Assembly (NCBI RefSeq): GCF_003413745.1
Contig: NZ_QVID01000001.1
Span: 682,001-746,000 of the forward strand
Direction: 5' to 3'
Source: Marixanthomonas ophiurae
GTDB lineage: Bacteria; Bacteroidota; Bacteroidia; Flavobacteriales; Flavobacteriaceae
DNA length: 64,000 nt
Within the stretch, counting starts at the first letter, position 1; every line of letters begins with the position of its first letter. Below are positions 51,878-56,488 of this stretch, one piece after another. Under the pieces are notes generated by a model, which searched no databases, had not been told where the DNA came from, and saw only the letters and a program-made list of their open reading frames with translations. The translations under genes and the position numbers were made by a program.

Positions 51878-51974
51878 AGGTGAATTTTTCATAGAAATTA
51901 TAAAAAAACTGATTTGTTACTATTTATTGATTGTATCTTAGCTTTAATTCAGAAAAAGCGATCAATAATTACAC

Positions 51975-52607
51975 ATGAATCAATCAATTCATCCTACATA
52001 CGCTTCAATTTTTGAAAAAGATTTAATAGAAGAAATTGAACAAACTGCGATCTTTAAACAAATTTCCCAAGACACAACCTTAATTAATATTGGCGATTAC
52101 GTAAAATCAATGCCTTTACTACTCTCAGGTGCTATTAAAGTACTTCGTGTAGATGATAAGGGAGATGAGTTACTAATGTATTTTTTAGAGACTGGCGACA
52201 CATGCGCCATGACCATGTCTTGCTGTTTAGGACATACCAAAAGTGAGATTAAAGCAGTAGCCGAATTAGATACAGAGCTTTTAATGATTCCTGTACAAAA
52301 GATGGAAGAATGGACTGCTAAATATAAAAGTTGGAGAAACTTTGTTTTTGAAAGTTATCATAACCGTTTACAAGAGTTATTACATACAGTAGATACCATT
52401 GCTTTTTTAAATATGGATGAGCGTCTGTTGAAGTATTTAAAAGAAAAAGCAAAAGTTTCTGGTGATACTACTCTACACACTACACACCAAGAAATTGCCT
52501 ATGATTTAAACACTTCTAGAGTAGTGATATCAAGACTTCTAAAGAAACTGGAGACTATGAAAAAGATAAAGTTAAAGCGAAACAGCATAACATTATATTC
52601 CTTTTGA
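51975..52607 (+). CDS. Crp/Fnr family regulator with a Cys cluster
   Basis: 210 aa: a cyclic-nucleotide-type beta-roll (about 30-120), a long dimer helix and a C-terminal HTH (about 155-200; THQEIAYDLNTSRVVISRLLKKLE). The beta-roll has C77, C83 and C84 in TGDTCAMTMSCCLGHTKS. Fnr-type N-terminal Fe-S cysteines are absent. As it precedes a sulfide/persulfide gene set, these thiols may sense reactive sulfur. It is followed 73 bp later by the exporter gene and likely regulates it. Confidence 0.9.
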   Translation: MNQSIHPTYASIFEKDLIEEIEQTAIFKQISQDTTLINIGDYVKSMPLLLSGAIKVLRVDDKGDELLMYFLETGDTCAMTMSCCLGHTKSEIKAVAELDTELLMIPVQKMEEWTAKYKSWRNFVFESYHNRLQELLHTVDTIAFLNMDERLLKYLKEKAKVSGDTTLHTTHQEIAYDLNTSRVVISRLLKKLETMKKIKLKRNSITLYSF

Positions 52608-52680
52608 TTGTTCTATGTAACATAAGATACGTTAGCACTAATGCCAATAGGCTACATTTGCCTAAAATCACTTTAGATTA

Positions 52681-53481
52681 ATGGAGATCACTCAAATTTT
52701 AGGATATGTTGGCGCTTTAGCAATTGGCATTGTTTTAGGTTTAATAGGTGGCGGAGGTTCAATTTTAACCGTTCCCGTGCTTGTTTACTTACTATATATC
52801 AACCCTGTTACTGCAACAGCTTATTCTTTATTTGTCGTAGGTGTTTCGGCTTTAGTAGGAGCTATTCGAAATATCCAAAAAGGATTGGTAGACTTTAAAA
52901 CAGCTATCGTTTTTGCTATTCCCGCTTTTATAGCTGTCTATGCCACTCGAAAATTTTTAGTACCCGCGATACCTGATCAATTATTTGAAATTAATGGTTT
53001 TTTAGTAACTAAAAACATCGCTATTATGGTGTTTTTTGCAATAATCATGTTTGTGGCTGCCATTTCGATGATTAAATCAAACGGTAAAAAAATAACTTCT
53101 GAAACAGCAGTTGTATATAACTATCCATTAATAATAATTGAAGGAGTTGTAGTTGGGCTTTTAACTGGAATTGTTGGTGCTGGCGGTGGTTTTCTTATTA
53201 TTCCGGCGTTGGTTTTGTTGGCAAAACTACCCATGAAAAAAGCCGTAGCCACTTCCCTTCTTATCATTGCTATAAAATCGCTAATTGGTTTTATTGGCGA
53301 TGTTGAAAACCTAGACATAGATTGGACTTTTCTATTAATTTTCACAACCATTTCAGTAGTTGGAATATTTGTAGGTACTTGGTTAAATAAGTTTATCGAC
53401 GGTAAAAAACTGAAAAAGAGTTTTGGATGGTTTGTATTGGCCATGGCGTTGTATATTGTTTTTAAAGAGTTCACTAAATAA
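52681..53481 (+). CDS. TauE/SafE family sulfite or thiosulfate exporter
   Basis: 266 aa polytopic membrane protein with two related halves. Each begins with the glycine-rich helix GLIGGGGSILTVPVLVYLL (first half) and GIVGAGGGFLIIPALVLLA (second half), the TauE/SafE signature. It exports sulfite, thiosulfate or an organosulfonate. The neighbours make sulfite or thiosulfate the most probable substrates. It is 6 bp before the methyltransferase gene. Confidence 0.92.
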   Translation: MEITQILGYVGALAIGIVLGLIGGGGSILTVPVLVYLLYINPVTATAYSLFVVGVSALVGAIRNIQKGLVDFKTAIVFAIPAFIAVYATRKFLVPAIPDQLFEINGFLVTKNIAIMVFFAIIMFVAAISMIKSNGKKITSETAVVYNYPLIIIEGVVVGLLTGIVGAGGGFLIIPALVLLAKLPMKKAVATSLLIIAIKSLIGFIGDVENLDIDWTFLLIFTTISVVGIFVGTWLNKFIDGKKLKKSFGWFVLAMALYIVFKEFTK

Positions 53482-53487
53482 ATAATA

Positions 53488-54075
53488 ATGGAATCTTTAA
53501 ATGAACCCTATTGGGACAACCGCTATAAAAATAAGGACACCAAGTGGGACATTGGCTATGTTTCCACGCCACTCAAAACCTATTTTGACCAGCTGACCGA
53601 TAATAAAAACCTAAAAATTCTCATTCCAGGAGGAGGTAATTCGTATGAGGCGGAATACTTACACGAACAAGGTTTTGCCGAAGTGTATGTAGTTGATGTT
53701 TCAGAAACTGCTTTACAAAACTTTAAAAAAAGAGTTCCTACGTTTCCTTCTGAAAAATTACTACATCAAGACTTTTTTAAGTTAGAAGAAACATTCGACC
53801 TCATTATAGAGCAGACCTTTTTTTGTGCGCTCGATCCTTCTTTGCGTAACGAATATGTTGCAAAAATGCATCAATTGCTGAAGCCAAAAGGAAAACTGAT
53901 CGGGTTACTTTTTAATTTCCCCCTAACCAAAGACGGGCCGCCCTTTGGTGGCAGCAAAACGGAATATAAAAAACGGTTTGCCCCTTTTTTTGAAATAAAG
54001 GTTATGGAAACTGCGTACAACTCTATCCCGCAGCGGCAGGGAAATGAATTGTTTGTTATTCTTCAGAAAAAATAA
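53488..54075 (+). CDS. TPMT-like SAM-dependent methyltransferase
   Basis: 195 aa. It starts with EPYWDNRYKNKDTKWDIG, the thiopurine/thiol S-methyltransferase signature, and has a SAM motif LIPGGGNSYEAEYL and DVSETAL with the QDFF acidic segment. In this operon it may methylate sulfide or small thiols. Substrate not shown by sequence. Confidence 0.85.
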   Translation: MESLNEPYWDNRYKNKDTKWDIGYVSTPLKTYFDQLTDNKNLKILIPGGGNSYEAEYLHEQGFAEVYVVDVSETALQNFKKRVPTFPSEKLLHQDFFKLEETFDLIIEQTFFCALDPSLRNEYVAKMHQLLKPKGKLIGLLFNFPLTKDGPPFGGSKTEYKKRFAPFFEIKVMETAYNSIPQRQGNELFVILQKK

Positions 54076-54131
54076 ACTGTATTTCTACTAGCTAGGTAAC
54101 CAATGTTACTGATAGCATCTTATTACTTGCC

Positions 54132-54139
54132 TATCTTTG
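54132..54139 (+). promoter_or_regulatory. -7 box of the persulfide dioxygenase gene
   Basis: TATCTTTG. The formal TTG start at 54137 of the longer reading frame is part of this box, so translation cannot begin there; ATG 54164 is the start. This also means the gene has its own promoter within the module. Confidence 0.55.
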
Positions 54140-54163
54140 TTATATAATTTTAAAACAGGTGTT

Positions 54164-55507
54164 ATGAAAATAAAACAGTTTGAATATAAGCCACTTTCAC
54201 ATTACTCCTATGCTATCATCAGTGATGGTAAGATGGCATTGGTAGACCCTGAGCGTGATCCTATGCAATACTATACCTTTGCTCAAGCGAACAACGCAGA
54301 GATTGTTGCAGTATTCGAAACCCATCCACATGCCGACTTTGTGAGTTCTCATCTACAAGTTCACAAGGAAACGGGTGCTACTATTTATTCTAGTGAAAAA
54401 ACAGGAGCAGATTATCCACATACGTCCTTTGATGATGGCAATACCATAAAAATGGGTTACATAACCTTTACTGCCATTAACACCCCTGGGCATTCCCCAG
54501 ATAGTATTACCATACAAGCCACAGAGGGAGAAAACACAGCATTATTTACCGGAGACACACTGTTTGTAGGTGATGTAGGCCGTCCCGATTTACGGGAGAA
54601 AGCAGGTCATTTAAAAGCCAAACGGGAAGAGCTGGCAAAAATGATGTATAACACCATACAAACTAAGTTTAAAGACCTTCCCGATTCAGCACTTGTTTAT
54701 CCAGCGCATGGTGCTGGTTCACTCTGCGGAAAAGGAATGAGCGCTGACGCTTCTTCAAGCACATTAGGAAACGAACGTATCGGTAATTGGGCATTTAAAA
54801 ATCAAACAGAAGAACAGTTTATCAATCATTTATTGAATTCGCAACCGTTTATTCCGCATTATTTTGGGTACAATGTTGCCATTAATAAAGAAGGTGCTGA
54901 AAATCTTTCGGAAAGTATCGGTCGAATTCCTTTGCAACTTGCTGTTTCAGAAAAGAAAGATGATATTTTAGTAGTCGATTCCCGCGATGAAGCAGTTTTT
55001 AAGAAGAATCACTTGCCTGAAAGTATCAATATTATGGCAACTTCAGAAACTTCTAAATTTGAAACGTGGTTAGGATCTATCGTTAAACCAGAAGAAGAAT
55101 TTTATGTCGTGGTGGATTCAGTAGAAAAAGCAAATTCATTACTGAATAGAATTGCAAAAATAGGCTATGAGAAGCAAGTTAAAGCGGTATTGACTTTAGG
55201 TGAAAAGAAAATAAATCAATCCCCAGCGTTTAATCTTTCAGAATTTAAGAAAAATCCCGATGCATTCACTATTGTTGATATTCGTAACGAAAGCGAAGTA
55301 AACGAGAGGAAATTTTTTGAAGAGGCTCTTGCTATTCCCTTGCATCAATTACGGGAACATGTTTCTGAAATCCCAACCGAAAAACCCATCATGGTTCATT
55401 GCGCTGGAGGCTACCGAAGTGCTGCCGGAAGCAGTATTCTGGAAACCGAACTAAAAAACACCCCCGTTTTCGATTTAAGTGATGCGGTAACTCAATTTCA
55501 AAACTAA
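54164..55507 (+). CDS. CstB-like persulfide dioxygenase and sulfurtransferase
   Basis: 447 aa. A metallo-beta-lactamase domain (about 1-255) binds one iron through H54, H56 and D58 (ETHPHADFVSSH), with further ligands in NTPGHSPDS, GDTLFVGDVGRP and YPAHGAGS. A first rhodanese-like domain (about 265-360) has no catalytic Cys, and a second (about 365-447) has the active Cys C413 in VHCAGGYRS. This order matches CstB of Staphylococcus, which oxidises persulfides to thiosulfate. It is therefore the likely enzyme core of the sulfur module. Confidence 0.9.
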   Translation: MKIKQFEYKPLSHYSYAIISDGKMALVDPERDPMQYYTFAQANNAEIVAVFETHPHADFVSSHLQVHKETGATIYSSEKTGADYPHTSFDDGNTIKMGYITFTAINTPGHSPDSITIQATEGENTALFTGDTLFVGDVGRPDLREKAGHLKAKREELAKMMYNTIQTKFKDLPDSALVYPAHGAGSLCGKGMSADASSSTLGNERIGNWAFKNQTEEQFINHLLNSQPFIPHYFGYNVAINKEGAENLSESIGRIPLQLAVSEKKDDILVVDSRDEAVFKKNHLPESINIMATSETSKFETWLGSIVKPEEEFYVVVDSVEKANSLLNRIAKIGYEKQVKAVLTLGEKKINQSPAFNLSEFKKNPDAFTIVDIRNESEVNERKFFEEALAIPLHQLREHVSEIPTEKPIMVHCAGGYRSAAGSSILETELKNTPVFDLSDAVTQFQN

Positions 55508-55512
55508 ATTCT

Positions 55513-56070
55513 ATGAATTTAATATATGAACCTTGGCCGTGGTACGTGGCAGGTCCTTTAATTGCTTTAATTATGTTTTTACTGCTTTTTGCAGGAAAGC
55601 AGTTTGGTATGTCTTCAAACTTACGAACCATGTGTGCCGTAGGAGGAGCTGGAAAAGCAGCGGATTTCTTCAAATTTGACTGGAAAAAAGAACGTTGGAA
55701 TTTATTGGTTGTTTTAGGCGCAGTAATTGGCGGATTTATTGCCTCTCAATTTATGTCTAATAACACAGTTGAAATCAATCCTAATGTTGCCGAACAGCTT
55801 TCCATAGATTATGGAATTACAAGTGCTAACGAAGCGTATATGCCACCGGAGTTATTTGCTACAGACCAACTGTCAAACCCATTTGTGTTATTGGTTTTAT
55901 TAGTTGGAGGGTTGCTAGTTGGTTTTGGCGCCCGTTATGCTGGCGGATGCACATCCGGTCATGCTATTTCAGGATTAAGCAATTTGCAGCTTCCTTCGTT
56001 AATAGCCGTAATTGGATTTTTTATCGGGGGATTGGTTATGATTCACGCTTTATTTCCATTAATATTTTAA
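55513..56070 (+). CDS. YeeE/YedE family sulfur transporter, first half
   Basis: 185 aa membrane protein with about four helices. The conserved Cys of the pore is in RYAGGCTSGHAISGLS. YeeE/YedE proteins (TsuA type) take up thiosulfate, and in many Bacteroidota the transporter is split over two genes, as here. It starts 5 bp after the dioxygenase gene and is translationally coupled with the next gene. Confidence 0.9.
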   Translation: MNLIYEPWPWYVAGPLIALIMFLLLFAGKQFGMSSNLRTMCAVGGAGKAADFFKFDWKKERWNLLVVLGAVIGGFIASQFMSNNTVEINPNVAEQLSIDYGITSANEAYMPPELFATDQLSNPFVLLVLLVGGLLVGFGARYAGGCTSGHAISGLSNLQLPSLIAVIGFFIGGLVMIHALFPLIF

Positions 56071-56074
56071 GAAT

Positions 56075-56488
56075 ATGAAACAGACAGTTTATTTAAGTAT
56101 TGGTATTTTCTTCGGAATTGTAATGTATAAATCTGAAGCAGCTTCGTGGTTTCGTATTTACGAAATGTTCCAGTTTGGATCCTTTCACATGTATGGTATT
56201 ATTGGTTCAGCTTTGGCGTTAGGGATTATCGGGATTCAAATTATAAAGAAGAAGAATTTTAAAGCAGTTGGCAATCAACAAATACAGTTAACCCCTAAAA
56301 ATAAAAGTTTTGCCAGATATGCCATTGGCGGAATTATTTTCGGCTTGGGTTGGGCGTTAGCGGGTGCTTGTCCAGGACCGATGTACGTTTTGGTGGGATC
56401 GGGTTACCTTTCTATTTTGGTAGTGATTTTTGGCGCTTTGCTAGGCACGTTTTTATACGGAGTTTTAAAAGATAAACTTCCGCACTAA
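56075..56488 (+). CDS. YeeE/YedE-related (DUF6691-type) sulfur transporter, second half
   Basis: 137 aa with four hydrophobic segments. The C-terminal half carries LAGACPGPMYVLVGSG, the counterpart of the first half's pore Cys. It starts 4 bp after the first half, so the two should form one heterodimeric transporter. It is the last gene of the module. Confidence 0.9.
   Translation: MKQTVYLSIGIFFGIVMYKSEAASWFRIYEMFQFGSFHMYGIIGSALALGIIGIQIIKKKNFKAVGNQQIQLTPKNKSFARYAIGGIIFGLGWALAGACPGPMYVLVGSGYLSILVVIFGALLGTFLYGVLKDKLPH

Follow-up and report, generated by a model that had tools for sequence, protein, structure and literature searches.

We analysed a 64,000-nucleotide stretch of the Marixanthomonas ophiurae genome (the window; contig NZ_QVID01000001.1, positions 682,001-746,000) in which positions 51975-56488 hold six open reading frames (ORFs), all on the same strand. 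The ORF listing and Pfam searches bear out the identities that an earlier reading of the letters alone (the original prediction) had given these genes, which comprise a Crp/Fnr-type regulator and five putative sulfur genes. The nearest named contigs to the locus are from Flavobacteriaceae. Numbered from the first letter of the window, the features are:

51934-51941, + strand: candidate -7 box of the regulator gene, TATCTTAG, a motif match with one mismatch to TAnnTTTG
51975-52607, + strand: Crp/Fnr-family regulator of 210 amino acids with Val183 in the recognition helix (Pfam cNMP_binding, 2.2e-9; HTH_Crp_2, 7.5e-8)
52617-52630, + strand: predicted operator of the tauE-tpmt unit, GTAACATAAGATAC, a motif match with one mismatch to GTAAC-N4-GTTAC
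52653-52660, + strand: -7 box of the tauE-tpmt unit, TACATTTG, its centre 33 bp 3' of the operator centre
52681-53481, + strand: TauE/SafE-family exporter (Pfam TauE, 3.7e-44)
53488-54075, + strand: TPMT-superfamily methyltransferase (Pfam TPMT)
54096-54109, + strand: predicted operator of the cstB-yeeA-yeeB unit, GTAACCAATGTTAC, a perfect motif match
54132-54139, + strand: -7 box of the cstB-yeeA-yeeB unit, TATCTTTG, its centre 33 bp 3' of the operator centre
54164-55507, + strand: CstB-like metallo-beta-lactamase of the persulfide dioxygenase type with two rhodanese domains (Pfam Lactamase_B and Rhodanese)
55513-56070, + strand: YeeE/YedE half transporter, YeeA-like (Pfam Sulf_transp half)
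56075-56488, + strand: YeeE/YedE half transporter, DUF6691/YeeB-like (Pfam Sulf_transp half)

Beyond the regulator gene, the locus thus reads as two predicted transcription units, tauE-tpmt and cstB-yeeA-yeeB, each with its own predicted operator and -7 box. The original prediction had pointed to 52610-52680 and 54080-54140 as regulator sites, and one predicted operator falls in each. By its metallo-beta-lactamase and rhodanese domains the product of 54164-55507 is CstB-like; a CxGGxRS-type loop is present in its second rhodanese domain only, and it matches the solved structures 3tp9 (1e-57) and 3r2u (2.5e-51), the latter of which we take to be S. aureus CstB. The listed TTG start of this ORF at 54137 is probably wrong because the -7 box at 54132-54139 overlaps that codon, and translation likely begins at the ATG at 54164. 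Among solved structures the methyltransferase is closest to proteins called thiol methyltransferase 1 and halide methyl transferase, with E-values of 1.5e-21 or weaker, and human TPMT is more distant (1.5e-4). The human enzyme accepts HS-, polysulfides and GSS- as methylation substrates (PMC13089183), so a similar role for the 53488-54075 product is worth testing.

By sequence and predicted structure the regulator is a member of the Crp/Fnr superfamily, with a cyclic-nucleotide-binding beta-roll and a Crp-type winged helix-turn-helix domain. Its AlphaFold model has the Crp fold, with a mean predicted local distance difference test score (pLDDT) of 84.6 and a predicted template modelling score (pTM) of 0.61. 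Foldseek searches with this model returned 4ev0 and 3dv8 first and 1i5z among the best, and in sequence, too, 3dv8 was the solved structure nearest to the regulator (1.9e-27). The Pfam and Foldseek results place the regulator in a family other than those of CstR and BigR, as had been proposed, and no second copy was found in the M. ophiurae genome at E<=0.001. C77, C83 and C84 are its only cysteines, and its N-terminus is Cys-free, again as originally described. FNR cluster ligands are therefore absent, which rules out an oxygen sensor of the FNR type, whose [4Fe-4S] cluster is held by three N-terminal cysteines and a fourth. When aligned with CRP, the regulator has a gap opposite Glu72 and T88, with K89 adjacent, opposite Arg82; a cAMP-responsive protein of the CRP type is ruled out on these grounds, given that Glu72 and Arg82 (in the numbering we assume) are presumably the cAMP contacts of CRP. 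In the same alignment C77 lies immediately N-terminal to the phosphate-binding cassette and Val183 is at the position of CRP Glu181.

We compared the cysteines across two collections of relatives. The close-relative set (115 rows, among them one partial row, L048_1, in which the alignment is unreliable) is biased because CAMTMSCC was among the six search patterns used to collect it; it has C77 in 115/115, C83 in 109/115 and C84 in 107/115 rows. A less biased set came from a profile search of 296 Bacteroidota genomes, 117 of which had a match at E<=1e-20, and comprises all 136 places besides the window's own; its profile was built from C77-bearing sequences and may slightly favour C77. C77 was present at all 136 of these places, C83 at 77 and C84 at 42. 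A control set of weakly similar other Crp/Fnr genes (20 loci, 21 rows) had no Cys at position 77 (0/21), with a gap there in four rows. Because C77 is invariant and the others are often missing across the Bacteroidota, C77 appears to be the core thiol of the subfamily, with C83 and C84 optional. The original prediction had named loss of the three cysteines from co-located homologues as evidence against it: C77 held throughout, and C83 and C84 are missing also in sulfur clusters, so that half of that evidence was found.

To look for an operator, we scanned the regulator flanks de novo for 5-N4-5 palindromes with no preset word. GTAAC-N4-GTTAC was found downstream of 77 of the 142 regulators with all three cysteines and upstream of 13; 20 mononucleotide shuffles gave a mean of 0.0. 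Among the remaining cysteine classes, GTGAC-N4-GTCAC was found in 4/48 and 6/68, and GTAAC in 7/68. The type of site followed residue 183 of the recognition helix: across 257 regulators, those with Val183 had 86 perfect GTAAC sites, no GTGAC site and 79 with none, those with Glu183 had no GTAAC site, 12 perfect GTGAC sites and 79 with none, and the single regulator with Ala had none (Fisher p 1.2e-15, a value that ignores kinship). When one mismatch was allowed, the counts became 108 GTAAC, 5 tied and 52 none for Val183, and 30 GTGAC, 10 tied and 51 none for Glu183. The pattern persisted in 172 clusters at 80% identity, with a slightly longer flank, where the ratio of GTAAC to GTGAC was 50:0 for Val183 (50 none) and 0:11 for Glu183 (one with both, 59 none). 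A tree of 231 rows implies no fewer than 7 changes of residue 183.

These sequence comparisons support recognition of GTAAC-N4-GTTAC by the window's regulator and suggest an operator code in which Val183 goes with GTAAC and Glu183 with GTGAC. Ebright is said to have described, in 1984, CAP mutants at Glu181 with altered specificity, and because Val183 occupies the position of CRP Glu181, the code looks like a natural counterpart of such mutants. Upstream of the window's own regulator gene no operator was found with up to 3 mismatches allowed, and the palindromes beside proteobacterial regulators revealed no common operator. In four clusters (L041, L056, L062 and L074) a second regulator copy lies 1.3-3.6 kb downstream of the first. 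Some clusters, L126 also among them, pair a subfamily member that has three cysteines and Val183 with another that has C77 only and Glu183; in L041, L062, L074 and L126 the Glu183 partner carries GSSREVISR. Regulator pairs with differing cysteine sets and predicted operators may thus share one cluster.

The operators stand at a fixed distance from a promoter element. Among 108 distinct perfect operators, 60 have a perfect TAnnTTTG box within about 60 bp downstream; for 56 of the 60, the centres of operator and box are exactly 33.0 bp apart (54/56 for GTAAC and 2/4 for GTGAC operators). Over whole loci and both strands, 104 of 120 boxes were at 33.0 bp. The TAnnTTTG box lies at -12 to -5 in Flavobacterium psychrophilum (PMC9723704), and the offset of 33 bp would therefore centre the operator at -41.5. 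This is where Crp sits at class II promoters (PMC5957442), and hence the place expected of an activator. Both window promoters, before tauE-tpmt and before cstB-yeeA-yeeB, have the 33-bp offset, with predicted starts near 52665 and 54144 and leaders of about 16 nt (tauE) and 20 nt (cstB). The geometry is thus, as predicted from sequence, that of class II Crp/Fnr-type promoters, with the operator near -41.5.

To relate the regulator to sulfur metabolism, we searched by tblastn for core sulfur genes (TauE, metallo-beta-lactamase-rhodanese, YeeA, YeeB, rhodanese, SulP and DUF2892) within 6 kb. Counting distinct proteins of the phylum set, such a gene was present for 30/38 regulators with three cysteines, 28/38 with C77 and C83, and 25/59 with C77 without C83, and relatives with C77 only also occur beside TauE, metallo-beta-lactamase and YeeE genes. 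The 20 control loci of other Crp/Fnr genes, three of them shortened by contig ends, had no TauE, metallo-beta-lactamase or YeeE gene, one SulP and one DUF2892. Together with the operators and the covariation of the recognition helix, this co-location across the phylum upholds the proposed tie between the regulator and sulfur genes. Five relatives that form a C77-only group (L231, L233, L234, L235 and L237, CSI type) lack core sulfur genes in the 6-kb range, and another role is possible there.

The composite of operator and box, with at most one mismatch, matched 115 times in 38 genomes, compared with 15 matches for the reversed pattern. M. ophiurae itself has three such sites, two in the window and a third, at C1:1423637, that precedes a DUF983 gene. 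This third site (1423637-1423680; L263:1501-1544) recurs as the same stretch in four genomes of the genus, and because its spacer is equally conserved, the recurrence alone is no proof of selection; in the distant genome G046, too, a DUF983-like gene lies 3' of a site (L294). In a regulon survey of loci L261-L294, the first gene 3' of the best site was readable in 26 (ten Pfam-checked, one of them without a family, and the rest named by resemblance). Sulfur genes made up 13 of the 26: four metallo-beta-lactamase-rhodanese, three TauE, one YeeA, two SulP, two rhodanese and one DUF2892-like. The others were a regulator (1), outer-membrane efflux (4), thioredoxin-like (2), DUF983 (2), multicopper oxidase (1) and cytochrome c (1) genes and two encoding proteins of about 105 amino acids of unknown kind. 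The latter two are related proteins found 3' of a perfect operator in two genomes (L275 and L281), and that of L281 has no Pfam match. TolC-type outer-membrane efflux genes lie 3' of perfect operators in four genomes (L274, L279, L287 and L289), which suggests that the regulon has an efflux branch.

Relatives are also carried on plasmids, of which we examined 12 of 34 records. The proteobacterial ones have C77 and C83 in 7/7 cases, and in five of the seven (Pseudosulfitobacter, Paracoccus, Thioclava, Chelativorans and Ruegeria) annotated metallo-beta-lactamase, YeeE or SulP genes adjoin the regulator; those of Thiothrix and Azospirillum have a DUF2892 gene only. The Pontibacter and Spirosoma relatives accompany TauE-metallo-beta-lactamase-YeeE clusters, and those of Persicobacter and Pusillibacter (Clostridia) have the Cys and no cluster of this type. 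In the Pusillibacter faecalis plasmid (L115) the regulator has C-x5-C and a NifB/NifX-type neighbour and no sulfur cluster. A Thermus relative lacks Cys at the loop and adjoins feoAB.

We put the probability at roughly 0.6 that the window's regulator is, as its sequence suggests, a Crp/Fnr-type dimer that activates a regulon for reactive-sulfur detoxification through GTAAC-N4-GTTAC at -41.5, with the C77 thiol replacing cAMP. In this mechanism the dimer would bind the operators at -41.5 of the tauE-tpmt and cstB-yeeA-yeeB promoters, and the C77 thiol, located in the former phosphate-binding cassette, would serve instead of cAMP. Persulfidation or polysulfidation of C77 would shift the dimer to its DNA-binding form, with C83 and C84 possibly acting in some lineages as helper thiols that resolve or chain the modification. 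Once bound to DNA, the dimer would touch RNA polymerase as a class II activator. Judging from their families, the CstB-like product would oxidise persulfide, TauE would export sulfite or thiosulfate, and the YeeE halves would move thiosulfate or sulfane sulfur, while the TPMT-like product may, by analogy with the human enzyme, methylate sulfide or persulfide.

Several observations weigh against this interpretation. The cysteine loop has a pLDDT of only about 65-75 in the regulator model, and C83 is unlinked to sulfur context in independent tree pairs. The link between residue 183 and operator, when restricted to supported independent pairs, holds in only 3/3 (perfect sites) or 4/4 (at most one mismatch), which is non-significant in a sign test (p 0.25 and 0.125). 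A perfect site nearby is missing for about half of the Val183 and most of the Glu183 regulators, 48 of the 108 operators have no perfect -7 box, and no core sulfur gene lies within 6 kb at 34/59 places with C77 without C83, 10/38 with C77 and C83 and 8/38 with three cysteines. In the M. ophiurae genome, the bare operator is no commoner than its reversed control (4 sites versus 9), with the three sites outside the window falling inside ORFs, and the composite at up to two mismatches shows no excess (5 versus 5).

It is also conceivable, if somewhat unlikely, that the same genes and operator are involved and C77 responds instead to a different signal, either thiol-reactive or redox (oxidants, electrophiles, hypothiocyanite or a low-molecular-weight disulfide), or to the general thiol redox state. 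A lone invariant thiol is open to many reactive agents, and the genes 3' of the sites also include some for thioredoxin-like, outer-membrane efflux, multicopper oxidase and cytochrome c proteins; however, the neighbours and targets found most often act on persulfide, thiosulfate or sulfite, and relatives adjoin sulfur genes on proteobacterial plasmids.

We consider it unlikely that C77 works, along the lines of the original prediction, as half of a dithiol sensor, forming a disulfide or polysulfide bridge with C83 or C84. The presence of C83 in 77/136 Bacteroidota places, in all seven proteobacterial relatives and in 3dv8, from a Firmicute, would fit such a bridge, but C83 is absent at 59/136 places, including the sulfur clusters L195, L198, L201, L204, L206, L207 and L208, and C77 is the sole Cys of the aligned segment in 51 of the 66 distinct proteins without C83. 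A bridge from C77 to C83 or C84 may form in the window's regulator; judged by the alignment, it cannot be general. A tetrasulfide of three cysteines is ruled out as the general mechanism by the same absence of C83 and by the many proteins with C77 alone.

Repression of both units from an operator overlapping the promoter is quite unlikely in our view. The operator does overlap the -33 region, and characterized persulfide sensors of the ArsR and CsoR families repress (PMC9918477 and PMC12423496). A repressor, however, has no need of the fixed offset seen in 56 of 60 promoters, which sets the operator at the class II position, and no clear conserved -33 element was found beside the operators in the perfect-operator promoter set, so the regulator probably acts at its class II site as an activator and not as a repressor. 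It is very improbable that C77 is a metal or haem ligand and the regulator a sensor of gas or haem state, since, although a Cys in the same loop is a haem ligand in the CO sensor CooA and Met79 is common two residues past C77, Met79 gives way to Leu, Ile or Val in the class with C77 and C83 but without C84, the subfamily alignment has no invariant His at positions 70-99, and the gene context is one of sulfur.

If the thiol-activator mechanism is true, many Bacteroidota control persulfide detoxification by an activator of CRP fold whose ligand pocket has turned into a thiol sensor. The mechanism can be tested precisely and cheaply with a single operator, a single cysteine and a single residue of the recognition helix. 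Across the phylum, sulfur regulons could then be read out of genome sequences, and TolC-type efflux, thioredoxin-like and DUF983 proteins join them as new candidates. More broadly, there is about an even chance that these proteins form a separate class of reactive-sulfur sensor, consisting of Crp/Fnr activators that have converted the cyclic-nucleotide pocket into a thiol pocket. In these, C77, as the only invariant cysteine, would be the core switch, extra cysteines would provide lineage-specific tuning, and the operator code would pair Val183 with GTAAC and Glu183 with GTGAC. Such a class would span the Bacteroidota and reach, through relatives that carry both C77 and C83, into the Alpha- and Gammaproteobacteria and the Clostridia.

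Known sensors named in the available literature include CstR/CsoR, SqrR, BigR, YgaV, FisR, OxyR and MarR-type proteins (PMC9774590 and PMC9918477); reactive-sulfur regulators named there are mostly CsoR, ArsR and MarR repressors, plus the sigma54 activator FisR. Our search of the open-licence literature found no Crp/Fnr persulfide sensor, with most subscription papers outside its scope and a prior description possible, and the available part of a CRP/FNR survey of a wastewater microbiome reports no such group (PMC8510549). The CstR/CsoR sensors and the ArsR sensors SqrR, BigR, YgaV and sHdrR resemble the window's regulator in thiol chemistry and in their control of metallo-beta-lactamase-rhodanese, TauE, YeeE-type and RND efflux genes (regulators related to sHdrR are found with TauE, YeeE-family and RND efflux genes; PMC12423496), but they are repressors of an unrelated fold, whereas the window's regulator has the Crp/Fnr fold. 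CstR and SqrR form two-cysteine bridges (PMC9774590); two candidates for a bridging Cys exist in the window's regulator, though only C77 is invariant across the subfamily. FisR of Cupriavidus and Acinetobacter is likewise a sulfane-sulfur-responsive activator (PMC9918477), but of the sigma54 enhancer-binding type.

Within its own superfamily, the regulator shares with E. coli CRP/CAP the fold, the cNMP and HTH_Crp_2 domains, a 14-bp operator and class II geometry, and differs in the gap at Glu72, T88 at Arg82 and Val183 at Glu181. The Eubacterium rectale Crp/Fnr protein EUBREC_1222 (3dv8) has C-x5-C aligned to C77 and C83, but lacks C84 and is annotated as a Crp/Fnr protein of unknown function. 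The closest parallel in the Crp family is A1S_1182 of Acinetobacter baumannii, a Crp-like protein highly persulfidated in sulfide-treated cells with no known effect (PMC7315123). Unlike the window's regulator, A1S_1182 is a cAMP-type Crp, 50% identical to that of E. coli, with its persulfidated Cys opposite the ligand pocket and no sulfur operon (PMC7315123).

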